Shown here: piece after piece, positions 25,012 to 38,404 of the stretch
How positions within the stretch are numbered: the stretch's first letter is position 1
Layout of the letters: each line of letters begins with the position of its first letter
Source: Eubacteriaceae bacterium
GTDB lineage: Bacteria; Bacillota; Clostridia; Lachnospirales; Lachnospiraceae
Assembly: GCA_910575665.1 (NCBI GenBank)
Contig: CAJTFB010000023.1
Location: forward strand, 1 to 62,119
Reading direction: 5' to 3'
DNA length: 62,119 bases
Notes under the pieces: model-generated
Told to the model about the DNA's origin: nothing
Database searches by the model: none
Seen by the model: the letters and a program-made list of their open reading frames with translations, nothing else
Translations under genes and position numbers: made by a program

Positions 25012-25438
25012 ATTGATCTATCAAAAGCCCATACTGCCATTCCAGCATATCTTTTAATGTAATCTCCTCTAATACGCTGTTTATTGCCGCATCCAGCCTT
25101 TCCCATACTTTATAATTAACACAAGTTTCTTTATTTTCACAGGCAATACCATTTTCTCCTACACACTCTGTTGGCGACATATTACCTTCTACCGCCTTTA
25201 ATATCTGCCCAACTGTATATTCTTCCGGTGGATACCTAAGAGTATATCCGCCATTTTTCCCTCTTAAACTTTGCACCAAAGCTGCTTTTTGTATTCCCGA
25301 AACAATCTGCTCCAGATACTTTTCAGATATATGCTGCCGCCTTGCTATATCCTTTAAACGAACCGGCTGTCCCCTGCTATAAGTTGCCAGATCCAGCATA
25401 AACTTCAGTGCATTTTTTCCTCTCGTTGATATTTTCAT
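25001..25438 (-). CDS. Rrf2-family regulator (IscR-like)
   Basis: A 145-residue winged-helix regulator starting MKISTRGKNALKFMLDLAT, with ISEKYLEQIVSGIQKAALVQSLRGKNGGYTLRYP as the recognition helix and wing. Three cysteines in the C-terminal loop (ECVGENGIACENKETCVNY) have the spacing of Fe-S-binding IscR/NsrR-type proteins. It directly precedes the decayed mnmA and nifS fragments, so its former operon partners are lost while the regulator is intact. It may now act on genes elsewhere, for instance the adjacent nadA, whose product needs an Fe-S cluster. Confidence 0.88.
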   Translation of the reverse strand: MKISTRGKNALKFMLDLATYSRGQPVRLKDIARRQHISEKYLEQIVSGIQKAALVQSLRGKNGGYTLRYPPEEYTVGQILKAVEGNMSPTECVGENGIACENKETCVNYKVWERLDAAINSVLEEITLKDMLEWQYGLLIDQYVI

Positions 25439-27504: not shown

Positions 27505-27906
27505 ATGATTTCAACAAGAGGACGGTATGCCCTGCGTCTGATGATCGACCTTGCCGTGCAGGATACAGACGAATATACCCCGTTAAAGGATATTTCCGAA
27601 AGACAGGGCATATCTGAAAAATATATGGAAATTATTATAAAGCAACTGGTAAAACATAAACTAATTCACGGTCTCAGGGGCAAGGGCGGCGGCTATCGGC
27701 TTTTACGCAGTGCTGCCGACTATTCCGTTGGTGAGATACTGGAAGCTGTGGATGAACAGCTTGCGCCTGTATCCTGCCTGCTGCCGGAAGCAGAACCCTG
27801 TGACAGGAAACCCATCTGCCCCACCATTGCCATGTGGAAAAAATTTGATACGCTGACGCATGAGTTTTTCTATGGCATCACGCTTGCAGACCTGGCAGAA
27901 ACATAA
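27505..27906 (+). CDS. Rrf2-family regulator (CymR-like)
   Basis: A 133-residue winged-helix regulator beginning MISTRGRYALRLMIDLAVQ, with ISEKYMEIIIKQLVKHKLIHGLRGKGGGYRLL in the DNA-binding region. It keeps three C-terminal cysteines (SCLLPEAEPCDRKPICPTIAMW), so it could bind an Fe-S cluster. The related CymR of Firmicutes represses cysteine genes with CysK as partner. Its position next to amino-acid and methionine ABC genes and near cysK makes a cysteine-responsive role plausible. GGAGGAG precedes the ATG. It converges with the ABC ATPase gene with only 9 bases between their stops. Confidence 0.88.
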   Translation: MISTRGRYALRLMIDLAVQDTDEYTPLKDISERQGISEKYMEIIIKQLVKHKLIHGLRGKGGGYRLLRSAADYSVGEILEAVDEQLAPVSCLLPEAEPCDRKPICPTIAMWKKFDTLTHEFFYGITLADLAET

Positions 27907-33582: not shown

Positions 33583-33844
33583 TAGTGTGCGGTAGTGTCA
33601 ACTTTATATACCCAAAATCGGCTCAACCCCAGTAAATTCAATGGTTCCAGAGGTTTTAAAAGCCTTTACCTCCCCTTTCTTTGGCTTAGGCGACCAAAAT
33701 TTTACGTCGGGAACCCGGGCAAGGCCGGGCTGAAAGCCCGTTAAATTCAGCCTTGACGGGGTTTACGTAAGTAAAATATAATCGGCCTCAGTCAAGGAAA
33801 GGGGGTCGATTTTTTCATAATCCGTTTGACACTACCTAGTGTGC
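33583..33844. mobile_element. 246-bp MITE with 11-bp terminal inverted repeats and 8-bp target duplication
   Basis: GGTAGTGTCAA at 33591-33601 is matched by its exact reverse complement TTGACACTACC at 33826-33836. The flanks carry the direct repeat TAGTGTGC at 33583-33590 and 33837-33844. The inside has no coding frame but several short self-complementary segments around GGCCGGGCTGAAAGCCCG. It is a nonautonomous transposon mobilised by an unseen transposase; an 8-bp duplication fits several IS families. It lies between cysK and metQ and fills nearly all of the 309-base gap. Confidence 0.85.
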
Positions 33845-33875: not shown

Positions 33876-34808
33876 TTACCCAAACAATGGCGTTGACAGA
33901 TATCTGTCCCCGGAATCAGGAAGCAATACCACAATTGTTTTCCCCTTATTTTCCGGTCTGCCAGCTAAAAGAGAAGCCGCCTTTAATGCCGCACCGGATG
34001 AAATTCCGACCAATATGCCCTCGCTGACTGCAAATGCCCTTCCTTCCGCAAAAGCATCTTCATTTTCGACAGCAATAATTTCATCGTAAATGTCAGTGTT
34101 TAAGATATCCGGTACAAATCCTGCCCCGATCCCCTGAATCTTGTGCGGTCCCGGTGTTCCTTTTCCCAACACCGGACTGCCAGCCGGCTCTACAGCCACA
34201 ACTTTCACATCCGGATTCTGTTCCTTGAGGTATTCCCCGACACCGGTAATCGTTCCGCCTGTTCCAACCCCTGCCACAAAAATATCTACTTTTCCATCCG
34301 TCTGCTCCCAGATTTCCGGTCCTGTTGTTTCTTTATGTACTGCCGGATTCGCCGGATTTACAAACTGCCCCAGTATTACCGCCCCATCGGTCTCTTTCTG
34401 TAACTCCTCCGCTTTGGCAATGGCGCCTTTCATGCCCTTTGCACCTTCTGTCAGAACCAATTCAGCTCCATATGCTTTCAAAAGATTTCTTCTCTCTACA
34501 CTCATCGTATCCGGCAATGTCAGAATCGCCCGGTATCCCTTTGCTGCAGCAACTGCTGCCAGACCGATTCCCGTATTTCCACTGGTCGGCTCGATAATCG
34601 TTGCCCCTTCTTTTAGAATTCCCTTTTTTTCTGCATCCTCTATCATGGCAAGTGCAATACGGTCCTTCACAGAGCCTGCCGGATTCAGATACTCCAGTTT
34701 TGCAAGAATTACGGCATCTGTCACTTCTGCCTGTTTACTGTAACGGTTCAATTTCAATAACGGCGTCCTGCCAATCAGTTCCAATGCATTTTCTTTTATT
34801 TCACTCAT
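33876..34808 (-). CDS. cysK: Cysteine synthase CysK
   Basis: O-acetylserine sulfhydrylase, a PLP enzyme making cysteine from O-acetylserine and sulfide. The 310-residue protein has PLP lysine K48 in NPAGSVKDR, the substrate loop [23 protein letters not shown] and the C-terminal SSGAALKAA...[16 protein letters not shown]. The ATG at 34808 has GGAGG 7 bases upstream; a TTG two codons earlier is in frame but lacks spacing. The start overlaps the stop of a cysteine-rich leader ORF. Expression is probably controlled by the attenuator at 34801-35064. In Firmicutes CysK can also partner the regulator CymR, and an Rrf2 homolog is encoded nearby. Confidence 0.95.
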
Positions 34809-34875
34809 AATCAATCCTCCATTTCTTTACACAAAAAACAGCTGCCATATACTTCCAACAGCTGCAACATCTCAT
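34801..34875 (-). CDS. Leader ORF 2: 24-residue cysteine-rich peptide overlapping the cysK start
   Basis: ATG at 34875 opens a 24-codon frame beginning MRCCSCW. Cys codons at positions 3, 4 and 6 sit just before and on the 5' arm of the terminator hairpin, with a further Cys at 15. The frame runs through the hairpin and the cysK ribosome binding site, and its TGA overlaps the cysK start by a few bases. AGGA lies about 9 bases before its ATG. The layout is that of an attenuation leader peptide with translational coupling to cysK. Translation is not proven. Confidence 0.6.
34833..34864 (-). terminator. Intrinsic terminator (attenuator) in the cysK leader
   Basis: On the minus strand CAGCTGTT (34864-34857) pairs with GGCAGCTG (34846-34839), including two G-U pairs, around a 10-base loop. 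Six T (34838-34833) follow at once. It lies 25 bases before the cysK start, so it can only serve to cut off cysK transcription. Leader ORF 2 is translated across it. Confidence 0.75.
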
Positions 34876-34886
34876 AATATCCAATC

Positions 34887-34985
34887 CTACCTGTCAGCCG
34901 TACATGGAATACAAATCTTATTTCTACCTGTCATCGTATGACAGCACATACACCTTCTCCTGTTATTTTCCATATTTTTCATCAT
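34887..34985 (-). CDS. Leader ORF 1: 32-residue cysteine-rich peptide upstream of cysK
   Basis: ATG at 34985 (a second ATG follows at once) opens a 32-codon frame with five Cys codons at positions 12, 14, 15, 25 and 28, including CMCC. AAAGGA lies about 9 bases upstream. Codons 14-20 form a perfect hairpin (CTGTCAT-ACG-ATGACAG, 34944-34928). The last codons repeat TGACAGGTAG (34896-34887), offering an alternative partner for the CTGTCA arm. This is a likely second sensing or timing element of the cysK attenuator. Confidence 0.55.
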   Translation of the reverse strand: MMKNMENNRRRCMCCHTMTGRNKICIPCTADR

Positions 34986-35035
34986 GGTAATCATTCCTTT
35001 CTTTCCTATTTCAATAGTAGGTTAATATGTTTTAT

Positions 35036-35064
35036 ATTATAGCCATGCACATACTCTTTGTCAA
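35036..35064 (-). promoter_or_regulatory. Consensus sigma-A promoter of cysK
   Basis: On the minus strand a perfect TTGACA (35059-35064) and a perfect TATAAT (35036-35041) are 17 bases apart. Transcription would start near 35029, leaving a 220-base leader before cysK that contains both leader ORFs and the terminator. Confidence 0.85.
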
Positions 35065-35112: not shown

Positions 35113-36294
35113 TTACCCGCCTATACATAGTTTTTTCAGTCTTTGCAGCGCCTCCTCCAAAACACTTCTCGGACACGCCACGTTAATTCTCTGAAAACCT
35201 CTCCCACATTCTCCGAAAATCTTACCGCTGTCCAGCCATAATTTTGCCTGGTAAATAATACGACGGTCGAGTTCTTCCGAATCCAGCCCCAATCCCCTGA
35301 AATCCAACCAGACCAGATAGGTTGCCTCCTGTTCCACCAAAGCCACACCGGGCAAATGTTCTGTTACATACTGTCTGGTAAAAGCAATATTGTCCTTTAC
35401 ATAAGACATCATGGCATGATACCATTCCCCGCCTTTGGAATATGCTGTCTCACATGCCACCAGTCCCATAACGCCAAGCTGGCTGATGCCTGCCGCATTC
35501 AGTTCTCTCCTGAATTTTCTCCGCAGCGTCCGGTTCGGAATAAATATATTGGACAGCATCATCCCCGCCAGATTGAATGTCTTACTGGGAGAGGTACAAA
35601 CCACGCAGATTTCCTCAAACTCTTTTTTCAAGCTGGCAAATACATGATGCTCTCCCTGGAAAATAAAATCATGGTGAATCTCATCACTGACGACCGTCAC
35701 TCCATAACGGATGCAGAGTTCCCCCAGTGTGGTTAATTCTTCCACCGTCCACACCCTGCCTACCGGATTGTGGGGGCTGCATAACAGGAACAGCCGGACG
35801 CTCTCTTCTTTGATTTTCTTCTCCAAATCTTCAAAATCGATATGATATTGATTGTCCCCGCCCAGATATAAATCACTGCTTATTACGTTCCTGCCATTGT
35901 CCCGGATTACCTCTGAAAAAGGATAATAAACCGGCTGCTGGATTAATACGCCATCTCCCGGCTCCGTATATGCCCTGACTGCCATCGCCAGTGCAAACAC
36001 CACCCCCGGCGTCTTGATGAGCCACGGCTCCTGCGGCTCCCAGCCATGCCGTTCCTTCATCCAGTCCCGGACCGTCTCAAAATATGGCGTCTGCACCTCG
36101 CTGTACCCAAAGATTCCATGACCCGCCCATTCTGCAAGGGCATCCTCCACATAGGAAGAAGTTCTGAAATCCATATCCGCCACCCACATCGGCAGCACAT
36201 CCTCCGGCATGCCCCGTTTCTTTGCAAAATCATATTTCAAACACTTCGTATTGCTCCGATCGATGACCGTATCAAAATCTAAGTTTCGTTCCAT
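35113..36294 (-). CDS. MalY/PatB-type cystathionine beta-lyase / C-S lyase
   Basis: A 393-residue fold-type I PLP enzyme of the MalY/PatB group: VLPMWVADMDFRTSSYVEDAL, TPGVVFALAMAVRAYTEPGDGVLIQQPVYYPF, LLCSPHNPVGRVWT, VVSDEIHHDFIF and the PLP lysine in TSPSKTFNLAGM. Such enzymes cleave cystathionine, cysteine conjugates or cysteine to a thiol or sulfide, pyruvate and ammonia. The ATG at 36294 has a GGGGG site 8 bases upstream; the frame is open 21 codons further. It starts 22 bases after the cooS stop and is cotranscribed with it. The cysK promoter lies directly downstream of its stop. Confidence 0.9.
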   Translation of the reverse strand: MERNLDFDTVIDRSNTKCLKYDFAKKRGMPEDVLPMWVADMDFRTSSYVEDALAEWAGHGIFGYSEVQTPYFETVRDWMKERHGWEPQEPWLIKTPGVVFALAMAVRAYTEPGDGVLIQQPVYYPFSEVIRDNGRNVISSDLYLGGDNQYHIDFEDLEKKIKEESVRLFLLCSPHNPVGRVWTVEELTTLGELCIRYGVTVVSDEIHHDFIFQGEHHVFASLKKEFEEICVVCTSPSKTFNLAGMMLSNIFIPNRTLRRKFRRELNAAGISQLGVMGLVACETAYSKGGEWYHAMMSYVKDNIAFTRQYVTEHLPGVALVEQEATYLVWLDFRGLGLDSEELDRRIIYQAKLWLDSGKIFGECGRGFQRINVACPRSVLEEALQRLKKLCIGG

Positions 36295-36316
36295 AACAAT
36301 GTCCCCCTGCCTCCTG

Positions 36317-38404
36317 TCATTCCCAACCAAGTGCTTTGCGCTTTGCCTTAAAATCATCTACTATTTTTTGCCCCAACACTGCCGGATCGGTGTCCACGTT
36401 CATCGATGAGCCAAGCGTTTCCAAAGTCCCATGTTTCAAAAACTCAATCACATTTTTAGAACCATGTATCTGCGCCTCTACACAGTGATAAGAACTGATT
36501 CCATTCAGCCTGAATCCCAGCGCCGCATCAATCCCCTTTTCATTTCCCCACTCAGGAGACGAAAACGCAAACGGCAGTTCAAACATCTTATGCCCCAATT
36601 CCCCTGCAATACCGGCGAAAATGCCGCTGGAACGGGTGTTGTCAATACATTCTCCCACATGCCATACCGGGGGCAGATCCGGTTCCAAAAACGCCCGCAG
36701 GCGCTCTCCTGCCCTCTCCTTCCCAGCGACAGCGCAATATCCAAGTTTCATCAGCGGAAAAGAAGCACAGCCGTTGGACAGTATGAGCACGTTATTTTTC
36801 AGCAGTACATCCGCAACATCCACGATGCATTTTTCATACAGGACTTTAGGGTTATTACAGCCGACCATATTTACTACGCCCAGGATCTCTCCCTCCCGGA
36901 TAGCCTCCGCCAGCGGTTTCATACTGCCGAACCGCTTATGTATATACTCCACGGAAAATCCGACTTCAGCCTCTACCTCATAGGATGGAATATACACTGG
37001 AACGCCCTTTCTCTGTCCAAAACTTTCGATGGCACGGCGCACGATCTTTTCTGCCAGTTCCTTCGTCTCACCAATATTGGCATGGACGTGGTCATACTCA
37101 TAGCGCTCTGCCCCTGGAAGCCGCGCAGATTCACTAGTTGTTACAACGACCGTTTTAAAACATTTGGCCACTTCCATAATGGATGGGAACACATCCTGTA
37201 CATCCGCAACCCATAAATCCAACGCTCCGGTTCCCAGTACCAGTTCCGCCGATACTGCATTTGACAGGGGAATCACTCCACTATAACGATACATTGCTGA
37301 AAGCCCGGAACAGCATATACCATAAAAACGTATTCCCTTTGCCCCTCCCGACTTCGCCAGTGCAATCATATCCTCACGTTTGCCCGCCTCCACAATCTGA
37401 CTGACAAGTAAAGGGAGATGCCCATGCACAGCAATATTAACATATCCTTTTTCCAATGCGCCAATATTTACCTTAGATGTTACCCTGTCTCCTACCCCAA
37501 ACAGGCTATCCGTTGCAATAGAAGCTCCCACCACCCCGGAAAAGGTAAACGCAAGCCCGCAGCGCAAAAACTGCTGCATAATGCTTTTCCAGTCACCGTC
37601 CGTTGCACAGCCAGATTTGTGATACGCCTCGAACACCTCATGGTATGCACTGACCGGCAGAATATCCAGTGCCTCCCAGACCTCCTGCCGTTCCTGCGCG
37701 GCGCAGGCTGAGATAGTTTTATATTCATCCGGTACCGTCCTTGACAAGTCTTCCAACAGTATGTCTGCCAGATCTCTTGCCACGTTTTTTATCTGGCGGT
37801 TTTTCTGTTTGATGCCGAAAACCTCCGCTGTGCTTCTGATTTTTTGTTCGCCAAGGATTGGCACATCCAGCCTGCCCTCCGCTGCCCATTTCAATGCGAG
37901 CATAACCTCCCTCGCATGCATGCCGTGCTGGGCTGCACCGGCAGCGGCACTCCGCAGCAGGTTCCTCGCCACAATCAGATCCGCATCCGCACCACAGACT
38001 CCTTTGGACGCCTTCGCTGTGATACGGCACGGCCCCATATTACAGATCTTACAGCAGATACCGGCAAGACCAAAATTACACTGTGGCTTCTGCTGGTCAA
38101 AGCGGTCGAATGCCGTATCAATCCCCAGCTGCTCCATACGCAGGAGCATTTCCCTTACCGCTGGATCCGGTGTCTGGCTGACTACATCCTCTTTGGCGGG
38201 AAATGTCTTGCGGTACTCGTTTACTGCGTCCATATAATCCCGGATAAACGCCTGCGGATCCTCTTCTTCCCCGTTCTGGTGATCCGCTTTTAACGTCACG
38301 GTGGGCACGCCATGTTCATCGAACCCAATCAGATTCCGATGGGAATGTATATGCGCTGGCGTATTCGCATGCACATGAATATGTTCTTTCTGGTGCTCGT
38401 TCAT
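36317..38404 (-). CDS. cooS: Carbon monoxide dehydrogenase catalytic subunit CooS, variant C-cluster
   Basis: A 695-residue Ni-Fe CODH (CO + H2O to CO2). A His-rich N-terminus (residues 4-22, seven His) may bind nickel. B/D-cluster cysteines are C109, C117, C118, C121, C126 and C137. C-cluster ligands are H329 (VHGHLP), C364/C365 (GICCSG), C516 (GCNNP), C546 (NGCASF) and C586 (GECIDN). The usual Cys in the DVQC segment, equivalent to Cys333 of CODH-II, is Asp404 (DVQDVFPS). So one cluster ligand is replaced. The ATG at 38404 has GAGG 6 bases upstream; the frame extends 17 codons further. No CooF, CooC or acetyl-CoA synthase genes are near. It lies between a NitT/TauT transporter and a C-S lyase. 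Confidence 0.9.
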   Translation of the reverse strand: MNEHQKEHIHVHANTPAHIHSHRNLIGFDEHGVPTVTLKADHQNGEEEDPQAFIRDYMDAVNEYRKTFPAKEDVVSQTPDPAVREMLLRMEQLGIDTAFDRFDQQKPQCNFGLAGICCKICNMGPCRITAKASKGVCGADADLIVARNLLRSAAAGAAQHGMHAREVMLALKWAAEGRLDVPILGEQKIRSTAEVFGIKQKNRQIKNVARDLADILLEDLSRTVPDEYKTISACAAQERQEVWEALDILPVSAYHEVFEAYHKSGCATDGDWKSIMQQFLRCGLAFTFSGVVGASIATDSLFGVGDRVTSKVNIGALEKGYVNIAVHGHLPLLVSQIVEAGKREDMIALAKSGGAKGIRFYGICCSGLSAMYRYSGVIPLSNAVSAELVLGTGALDLWVADVQDVFPSIMEVAKCFKTVVVTTSESARLPGAERYEYDHVHANIGETKELAEKIVRRAIESFGQRKGVPVYIPSYEVEAEVGFSVEYIHKRFGSMKPLAEAIREGEILGVVNMVGCNNPKVLYEKCIVDVADVLLKNNVLILSNGCASFPLMKLGYCAVAGKERAGERLRAFLEPDLPPVWHVGECIDNTRSSGIFAGIAGELGHKMFELPFAFSSPEWGNEKGIDAALGFRLNGISSYHCVEAQIHGSKNVIEFLKHGTLETLGSSMNVDTDPAVLGQKIVDDFKAKRKALGWE

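Follow-up and report, generated by a model that had tools for sequence, protein, structure and literature searches.

We posit that cysK in the window, i.e., the entire 62,119-nucleotide stretch of Eubacteriaceae bacterium DNA analyzed here, is very likely controlled by a trp-type, cysteine-specific transcription attenuator, with ORF1, a short Cys-rich reading frame in the leader of the gene, as its sensor. The initial annotation had proposed a Cys-codon attenuator at this position, and every coordinate that it gave for the cysK leader region on the minus strand is confirmed; the leader's Cys codons, reading frame and terminator are kept in relatives, but its choice of ORF2 as the sensor is not upheld. 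T-boxes or CymR are the usual explanation for cysteine control in Firmicutes. The region between cysK and a gene for a PatB-family C-S lyase features a promoter that matches the full consensus, two short ORFs rich in Cys and a terminator, laid out as follows:

33876..34808, minus strand: cysK (cysteine synthase A), the putatively regulated gene (TIGR01139, 453 bits against a cut-off of 351; PF00291)
34801..34875, minus strand: ORF2, whose frame is not kept separately in relatives and which probably arises from the terminator sequence as a by-product
34833..34865, minus strand: intrinsic terminator hairpin and T6 tract, GCAGCTGTTG-8-TGGCAGCTGT (sequence, fold, covariation)
34845..34861, minus strand: antiterminator 3′ strand CTGTTGGAAGTATATGG, i.e., the terminator 5′ arm and loop (duplex, covariation)
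34887..34985, minus strand: ORF1, leader peptide MMKNMENNRRRCMCCHTMTGRNKICIPCTADR (reading frame; counterparts in relatives)
34891..34907, minus strand: antiterminator 5′ strand CCATGTACGGCTGACAG, i.e., the ORF1 tail just before the stop (dG −20.5; covariation)
34928..34944, minus strand: small hairpin CTGTCA-tacga-TGACAG overlapping the Cys codons, possibly an RNA polymerase pause hairpin
34941..34952, minus strand: putative sensor Cys codons 12, 14 and 15 of ORF1 (TGT ATG TGC TGT; stall model; kept in L134)
35005..35021, minus strand: palindrome CCTACTATTGAAATAGG just past the −10 box, a candidate repressor operator
35036..35064, minus strand: sigma-70 promoter TTGACA-17-TATAAT (12/12 consensus matches)
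35113-36357, minus being the strand of interest: PatB-family C-S lyase gene on the other flank of the leader (TIGR04350)

The promoter is as perfect as had been annotated, with its −35 TTGACA at 35064-35059 and its −10 TATAAT at 35041-35036 separated by a 17 nt spacer. Promoter-like sites are not in excess in the region (9 observed vs 6.6 expected), and the 12/12 score is unique to the cysK-leader promoter among them. ORF1 begins approximately 50 nt past the −10 box, is led by a Shine-Dalgarno sequence and has the described 32 codons from the ATG at 34985 with five Cys at codons 12, 14, 15, 25 and 28; an alternative ATG at 34994 would give 35 codons but abuts the AAAGGA Shine-Dalgarno-like site. 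Thus, ORF1 fits the form of a trp-type leader, namely a short Shine-Dalgarno-led frame with clustered codons for the regulated amino acid, and is predicted to be translated. A scan of the window outside its long ORFs recovered no further Cys leader. On the other side of cysK, between it and an NlpA lipoprotein gene, there is a hairpin-rich-looking stretch (33610-33830, minus strand), which is single-copy in the genome.

Conservation of the Cys codons and of the frame in relatives had been suggested as a test, and ORF1 stands up to it. Relative to its counterpart in the nearest named record (L134, Lachnospiraceae bacterium B94_19_ER_BP, leader MMNNIEKNRRRCMCCQCVTCRNKNCVSCTVNM), it shows 16 base changes in 13 codons, all of which alter the amino acid, and no indel, with indels present in its flanks; all five Cys codons are retained in L134, which additionally gained two Cys. 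The leader of G005 is 96% identical to that of the window and its ORF1 differs by a single synonymous change, located in a Cys codon. Since all Cys are kept while 13 other codons change their amino acid, we interpret ORF1 as a codon sensor rather than a functional protein.

To survey relatives, we queried 39 genus genomes, 392 order genomes and the contigs of named genomes (best 80 of 585) with the cysK protein, yielding 158 orthologous upstream regions after leaving out the paralogs L015-L036 and L128-L133, merging exact duplicates (near-copies were kept) and excluding L099 (58 nt upstream only) and L116 and L127 (cysK start not located by tblastn). A strict scan, which required an ATG, a Shine-Dalgarno, a length of ≤45 residues and either ≥3 Cys including a CC or CxC or else a CCC, and whose criteria were fixed after a first look at the leaders, identified ORF1-type leaders before cysK in 24 of the 158 distinct regions, including near-copies and at least one likely chance match (L120), as compared to 0/158 on the reverse strand and a mean of 0.7 (maximum 2) in 20 dinucleotide-shuffled sets. 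CCC runs occur in 16/158, against 0/158 on the reverse strand and none in 10 shuffled sets. By the same scan, which misses real leaders such as that of L202, no leader was found before the other 134 of the 158 orthologs. As a control, 10 of 366 other gene starts scored: seven of these carry cysK leaders themselves, cysK being read from an upstream ATG, and the remaining three are the second leaders of L176 and L207, discussed below, plus one in L195.

Further examples are MKTNNMVVNKRNNNCCCCHTVYINTVCFSCV in L011 (genome G029), MNKATVSNNQNFTMCCCHAVCMSTVYFSYALCT in L144, the ...CCCQAV... type of L073, L074, L090 and the Lacrimispora amygdalina locus L204, and the leaders of families f11 (L089, L096) and f17 (L106). 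Among 23 inspected leaders (L093, a near copy of L089, was omitted), terminators were detected automatically in 13 and by eye in three (L073, L144, L196), with seven lacking a visible one. Cys-run leaders without a visible terminator precede cysK in L139, L140, L148, L153 and L086 (e.g., MRHRKRMCCCSKGRC and MQNKKMTMRCCCRCCSTYE); these are perhaps under translational or Rho-dependent control.

A peptide profile of 12 leaders returned 15 matches at E ≤ 0.01 in 397 family genomes. The six best (E of 7.4e-6 or better) lie directly before cysK, the loci in G558 and G695 being new, and the nine with E > 1e-4 are not before cysK in the ORF listing and were taken as chance, perhaps excepting L220. The latter (G605:C31:7574-7633, minus strand) is a CCC leader with a terminator; it follows closely on a cysK paralog and is itself followed by an ABC-ATPase-like frame. 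At E ≤ 0.001, all 3 genus and all 9 order matches are beside cysK; as these are the profile's own rows or near-copies, they attest to its specificity rather than adding members. Searching 61 genomes with the 381-nt leader DNA recovered only G005 over the full length, along with four short uninformative matches elsewhere. The ORF1 protein as a query in 39 congeners retrieved nothing above noise beyond itself and G005; the true counterpart in G029 escaped it and came to light only through inspection upstream of cysK. In the phage collection 24 records gave a match, and the 20 listed fall inside the coding part of cysK.

In a FastTree tree of 110 cysK proteins, 19 of them with a leader (L202 being scored as leaderless), there are 13 changes of leader label vs 17.9 with shuffled labels, and starred branches force only 4 of the 13. 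The leader is thus patchy in its distribution and was probably gained or lost several times; L137 resembles a decayed leader by eye. Second Cys-rich leaders with terminators are found past cysK in Lacrimispora algidixylanolytica (L207:5082-5189, plus strand) and [Clostridium] aerotolerans (L176:5084-5167, plus strand). That of L207 precedes genes for a GST-domain protein and an SBP_bac_3/ABC transporter of the amino-acid type, and CUGAUACC, located at its stop codon, may be able to pair with the arm of its terminator. An O-acetylhomoserine sulfhydrylase gene in L195 is preceded by a leader-like ORF that contains Cys and ends in ACCLFC (L195:2484-2561, plus strand).

The intrinsic terminator with six U that had been noted just before cysK is present at 34865-34833. 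Terminator-like sites are not in excess in the region (2 observed vs 2.3 expected); the 38-nt terminator hairpin folds strongly (z −3.1; 1/200 shuffles equally good), other sub-folds of the leader are weak (z −0.3 to −1.5), and the whole leader has a z of −1.5 with 15/200 shuffles equally good. It is conservation in relatives that places the leader above chance. The last codons of ORF1 (CCAUGUAC..CUGACAG) are complementary to the terminator 5′ arm and loop (CUGUUGG..GUAUAUGG), and the resulting antiterminator helix and the terminator helix share bases and are hence mutually exclusive. The antiterminator duplex of the window amounts to −20.5 kcal/mol, with 0/300 dinucleotide-preserving shuffled spacers being as good, and that of L134 is matched by 1/300; taken singly, only 5/15 leaders fall below 0.05 against shuffled spacers. 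Measured from the end of the leader's stop codon, the antiterminator strand is found between −22 and +23 nt in 13/15 leaders, a position at which a terminating ribosome would cover it.

Compensatory changes were assessed in alignment A4, comprising nine leaders aligned by MAFFT without structure, among which L007 and L008 are near-copies and from which L220 was omitted as its tail could not be matched to its loop by eye. In this set, whose leaders and helix were picked after inspection and in which relatedness inflates the counts of two-sided changes, the 8-pair outer helix of the antiterminator is paired in 95.8% of cells and shows two-sided changes in 4/8 pairs (reached by 25/500 shuffles) and in 7 cells vs 2.5 shuffled (2/500 as high), its pair types being no higher than those of shuffles (232/500). 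Under the same caveats, the terminator helix is 97.7% paired, with two-sided changes in 3/10 pairs (11/500 shuffles). Sliding the helices lowers pairing to 11–61% for the antiterminator and 19–66% for the terminator. At the level of sequence, then, the leader displays the anatomy, conservation, covariation and mutual exclusion of an attenuator: as in the trp type, an intrinsic terminator lies between leader ORF and gene, and a mutually exclusive antiterminator carries compensatory changes.

The small hairpin with its CTGTCA and TGACAG arms and the second TGACAG copy at 34896-34891 are also where the initial annotation had placed them; in the alignment with L134, the TGTCA/TGACA arms are kept and the loop is changed. 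In the window, a protective 1:2 helix between the sensor codons and the antiterminator strand is at chance level (p 0.59). It has p 0.01–0.02 in L073, L074 and L090, where the Cys codons pair with the region past the stop (GUUGUCAGGC with GCCUGACAGC), and is equaled by 0/300 shuffles in L204, which has a corresponding pairing (GUUGCCAGGC with GCCUGGCAGC); the 1:2 helix of these four shows a two-sided change.

We modeled folding behind a ribosome whose edge lies 13 nt beyond the first base of the A-site codon, with codons numbered from MMKN. For the window, the computed probability of the terminator is 0.00–0.01 with Cys codon 12, 14 or 15 in the A site, 0.97–1.00 at the two late Cys codons, 1.00 at the stop and 0.85 without a ribosome; in these models, its antiterminator strand is masked at the stop and free when the ribosome is stalled at Cys. 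L089 resembles the window, and in 10/15 relatives the terminator probability is ≥0.95 at the first Cys run under equilibrium folding. For these ten, a kinetic argument from the order of synthesis is needed, since the terminator persists at equilibrium. In an arm-sequestration model, in which only the arm, the loop and 3 nt have emerged, mean upstream sequestration of the arm over 16 leaders is 0.70 when Cys-stalled and 0.24 at the stop, as compared to 0.48 with shuffled spacers (letter-only shuffles); singly, p ≤ 0.05 is reached in 5/16, and in L096 and L196 the stalled and stop states are not told apart.

Based on these observations, we infer that ORF1 is translated, that ribosomes stall at its Cys codons and that this alters cysK expression in response to cysteine. 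RNA polymerase would start at the consensus promoter and a ribosome would load on ORF1. With Cys-tRNA plentiful, the ribosome would reach the ORF1 stop and cover the ORF1 tail (34907-34891), allowing the terminator (34865-34833) to form, and cysK would not be transcribed. With Cys-tRNA short, it would stall at Cys codons 12–15, some 34–60 nt upstream of the tail, which would then be free to pair with the emerging terminator 5′ arm and loop, letting the polymerase read through into cysK.

The initial annotation had instead envisaged ORF2 as the sensor, with the stalled ribosome sitting on the terminator arm. The frame exists as described: it has 24 codons from the ATG at 34875 to the TGA at 34801, with Cys 3, 4, 6 and 15, of which the first three lie within the 5′ arm, and it overlaps the cysK ATG at 34808. 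It begins 11 nt past the ORF1 stop, and a stall on it, perhaps after re-initiation, could make it a second sensor with the same sign of control as ORF1. Its start codon is ATG, GTG and TTG in G000, G005 and L134, respectively, all possible bacterial starts, and Cys-containing frames cover the terminator in 4/11 other leaders (L089, L090, L096, L204), differing in place and sequence. However, the conservation test goes against ORF2: its frame has no stop in G005 and continues into cysK, its Cys3 is lost in L134, in 7/11 other leaders (L011, L138, L144, L164, L053, L074, L106) the terminator arm is not covered by any frame containing ≥2 Cys, and the Shine-Dalgarno of ORF2 is weak or absent by eye. 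As UGC and UGU occur in the arm sequence itself, ORF2-like frames are probably its by-products, and we consider a sensory role for ORF2 unlikely. The conserved design is rather one in which a stall on ORF1 would free the antiterminator and permit read-through.

A second alternative places control at the promoter only, via a repressor at the palindrome, with the leader as a relic. The CCTAY-N7-RTAGG palindrome is found in 56/158 orthologous upstream regions and in none of 10 letter-shuffled sets; it occurs with and without a leader, often past the −10 and in some cases overlapping the −35 by eye. It is probably a repressor operator, and one might guess at a CymR/Rrf2-like sulfur regulator as its repressor. 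Two Rrf2-family genes score over the cut-off in the window (25040-25432, minus strand; 27508-27900, plus strand) and share the contig with a sulfur/amino-acid transport cluster. These genes, together with the palindrome and the decayed appearance of L137, would be compatible with promoter-only control, but the clade of the window has kept all the elements of the leader, namely frame, Cys codons, terminator and antiterminator, in intact and covarying form, which makes such control improbable. A repressor layer acting together with the attenuator is the likelier arrangement.

Still less probable is a role for ORF1 as a functional Cys-rich, zinc-binding microprotein next to an incidental terminator. 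Its CxCCH...CxxC spacing is one that we take to resemble a zinc ribbon, and the strong promoter and Shine-Dalgarno would suit a translated product. Against this, the peptide has no Pfam match, the peptides of relatives diverge almost everywhere except at Cys, and the coding tail doubles as an antiterminator strand with compensatory changes.

The prospect that a T-box or another known riboswitch controls cysK is negligible: cysteine-specific T-boxes do precede cysK in Clostridium perfringens (PMC2940859) and the genome has six T-box matches, two of them over the cut-off, but none of the six is on the cysK contig, no RF00230 (T-box) match lies upstream of cysK, and Rfam at gathering thresholds detected nothing except tRNA in the window or 15 related loci, with a lax threshold adding only two sub-threshold, chance-level matches to unrelated families at the leader. 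T-box, microprotein and promoter-only control were each thus considered and rejected as the main reading, and we retain attenuation through ORF1.

The proposed attenuator can be compared with several known systems. With the trp/his-type ribosome-mediated transcription attenuators of enteric bacteria (summarized in PMC10953045), it shares a leader peptide in which the regulated amino acid is abundant, exclusive antiterminator and terminator helices, and a stop codon at the antiterminator strand; it differs in the amino acid, cysteine, in its occurrence in Lachnospirales and in that the 1:2 helix is clear in no more than four leaders, all of the Lacrimispora type. In having Cys-codon runs ahead of a cysteine gene, it recalls the actinobacterial candidate cys leader peptides, which are described as lacking obvious terminators (PMC1262725), and the mycobacterial polycysteine uORFs, cited as translation attenuation (PMC13236596). 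Unlike these, the cysK leader has an intrinsic terminator and an antiterminator; the mycobacterial uORFs are characterized as leaderless and without an intrinsic terminator, whereas ORF1 is Shine-Dalgarno-led with a terminator downstream.

Leader-peptide attenuation as such is not new to Firmicutes, given the His leader peptide of hisS/hisZ in bacilli (PMC2965389) and the Leu-responsive attenuator of ilv in Staphylococcus aureus (PMC5794164); the present system differs in amino acid, bacterial class and genes. The T-box of C. perfringens has the same gene, the same signal (Cys-tRNA charging) and the same output, but it binds tRNA directly without a ribosome. Among the literature matches listed, which include few subscription papers, none described transcription attenuation by Cys in Lachnospirales; for Clostridia, Lachnospiraceae or Firmicutes, no listed title on attenuation by leader peptides or on leader peptides for cysteine concerned this system.

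The cysK genes of C. acetobutylicum, C. tetani and C. novyi are without a T-box, and other clostridial mechanisms may exist, according to PMC2940859. A ribosome-sensed switch would be one possible mechanism of this non-T-box kind for cysK, in a large group of gut bacteria. We further advance, tentatively and with somewhat less than even confidence, the idea that the Lachnospirales ribosome follows RNA polymerase closely enough for trp-type control, and that a family of cysteine attenuators, repeatedly acquired and lost, governs cysK and, in genomes of the Lacrimispora type, also a second operon (the GST-domain protein with the amino-acid-type ABC transporter). If Lachnospirales ribosomes do trail this closely, the functional uncoupling of translation from transcription would not hold for all Firmicutes.
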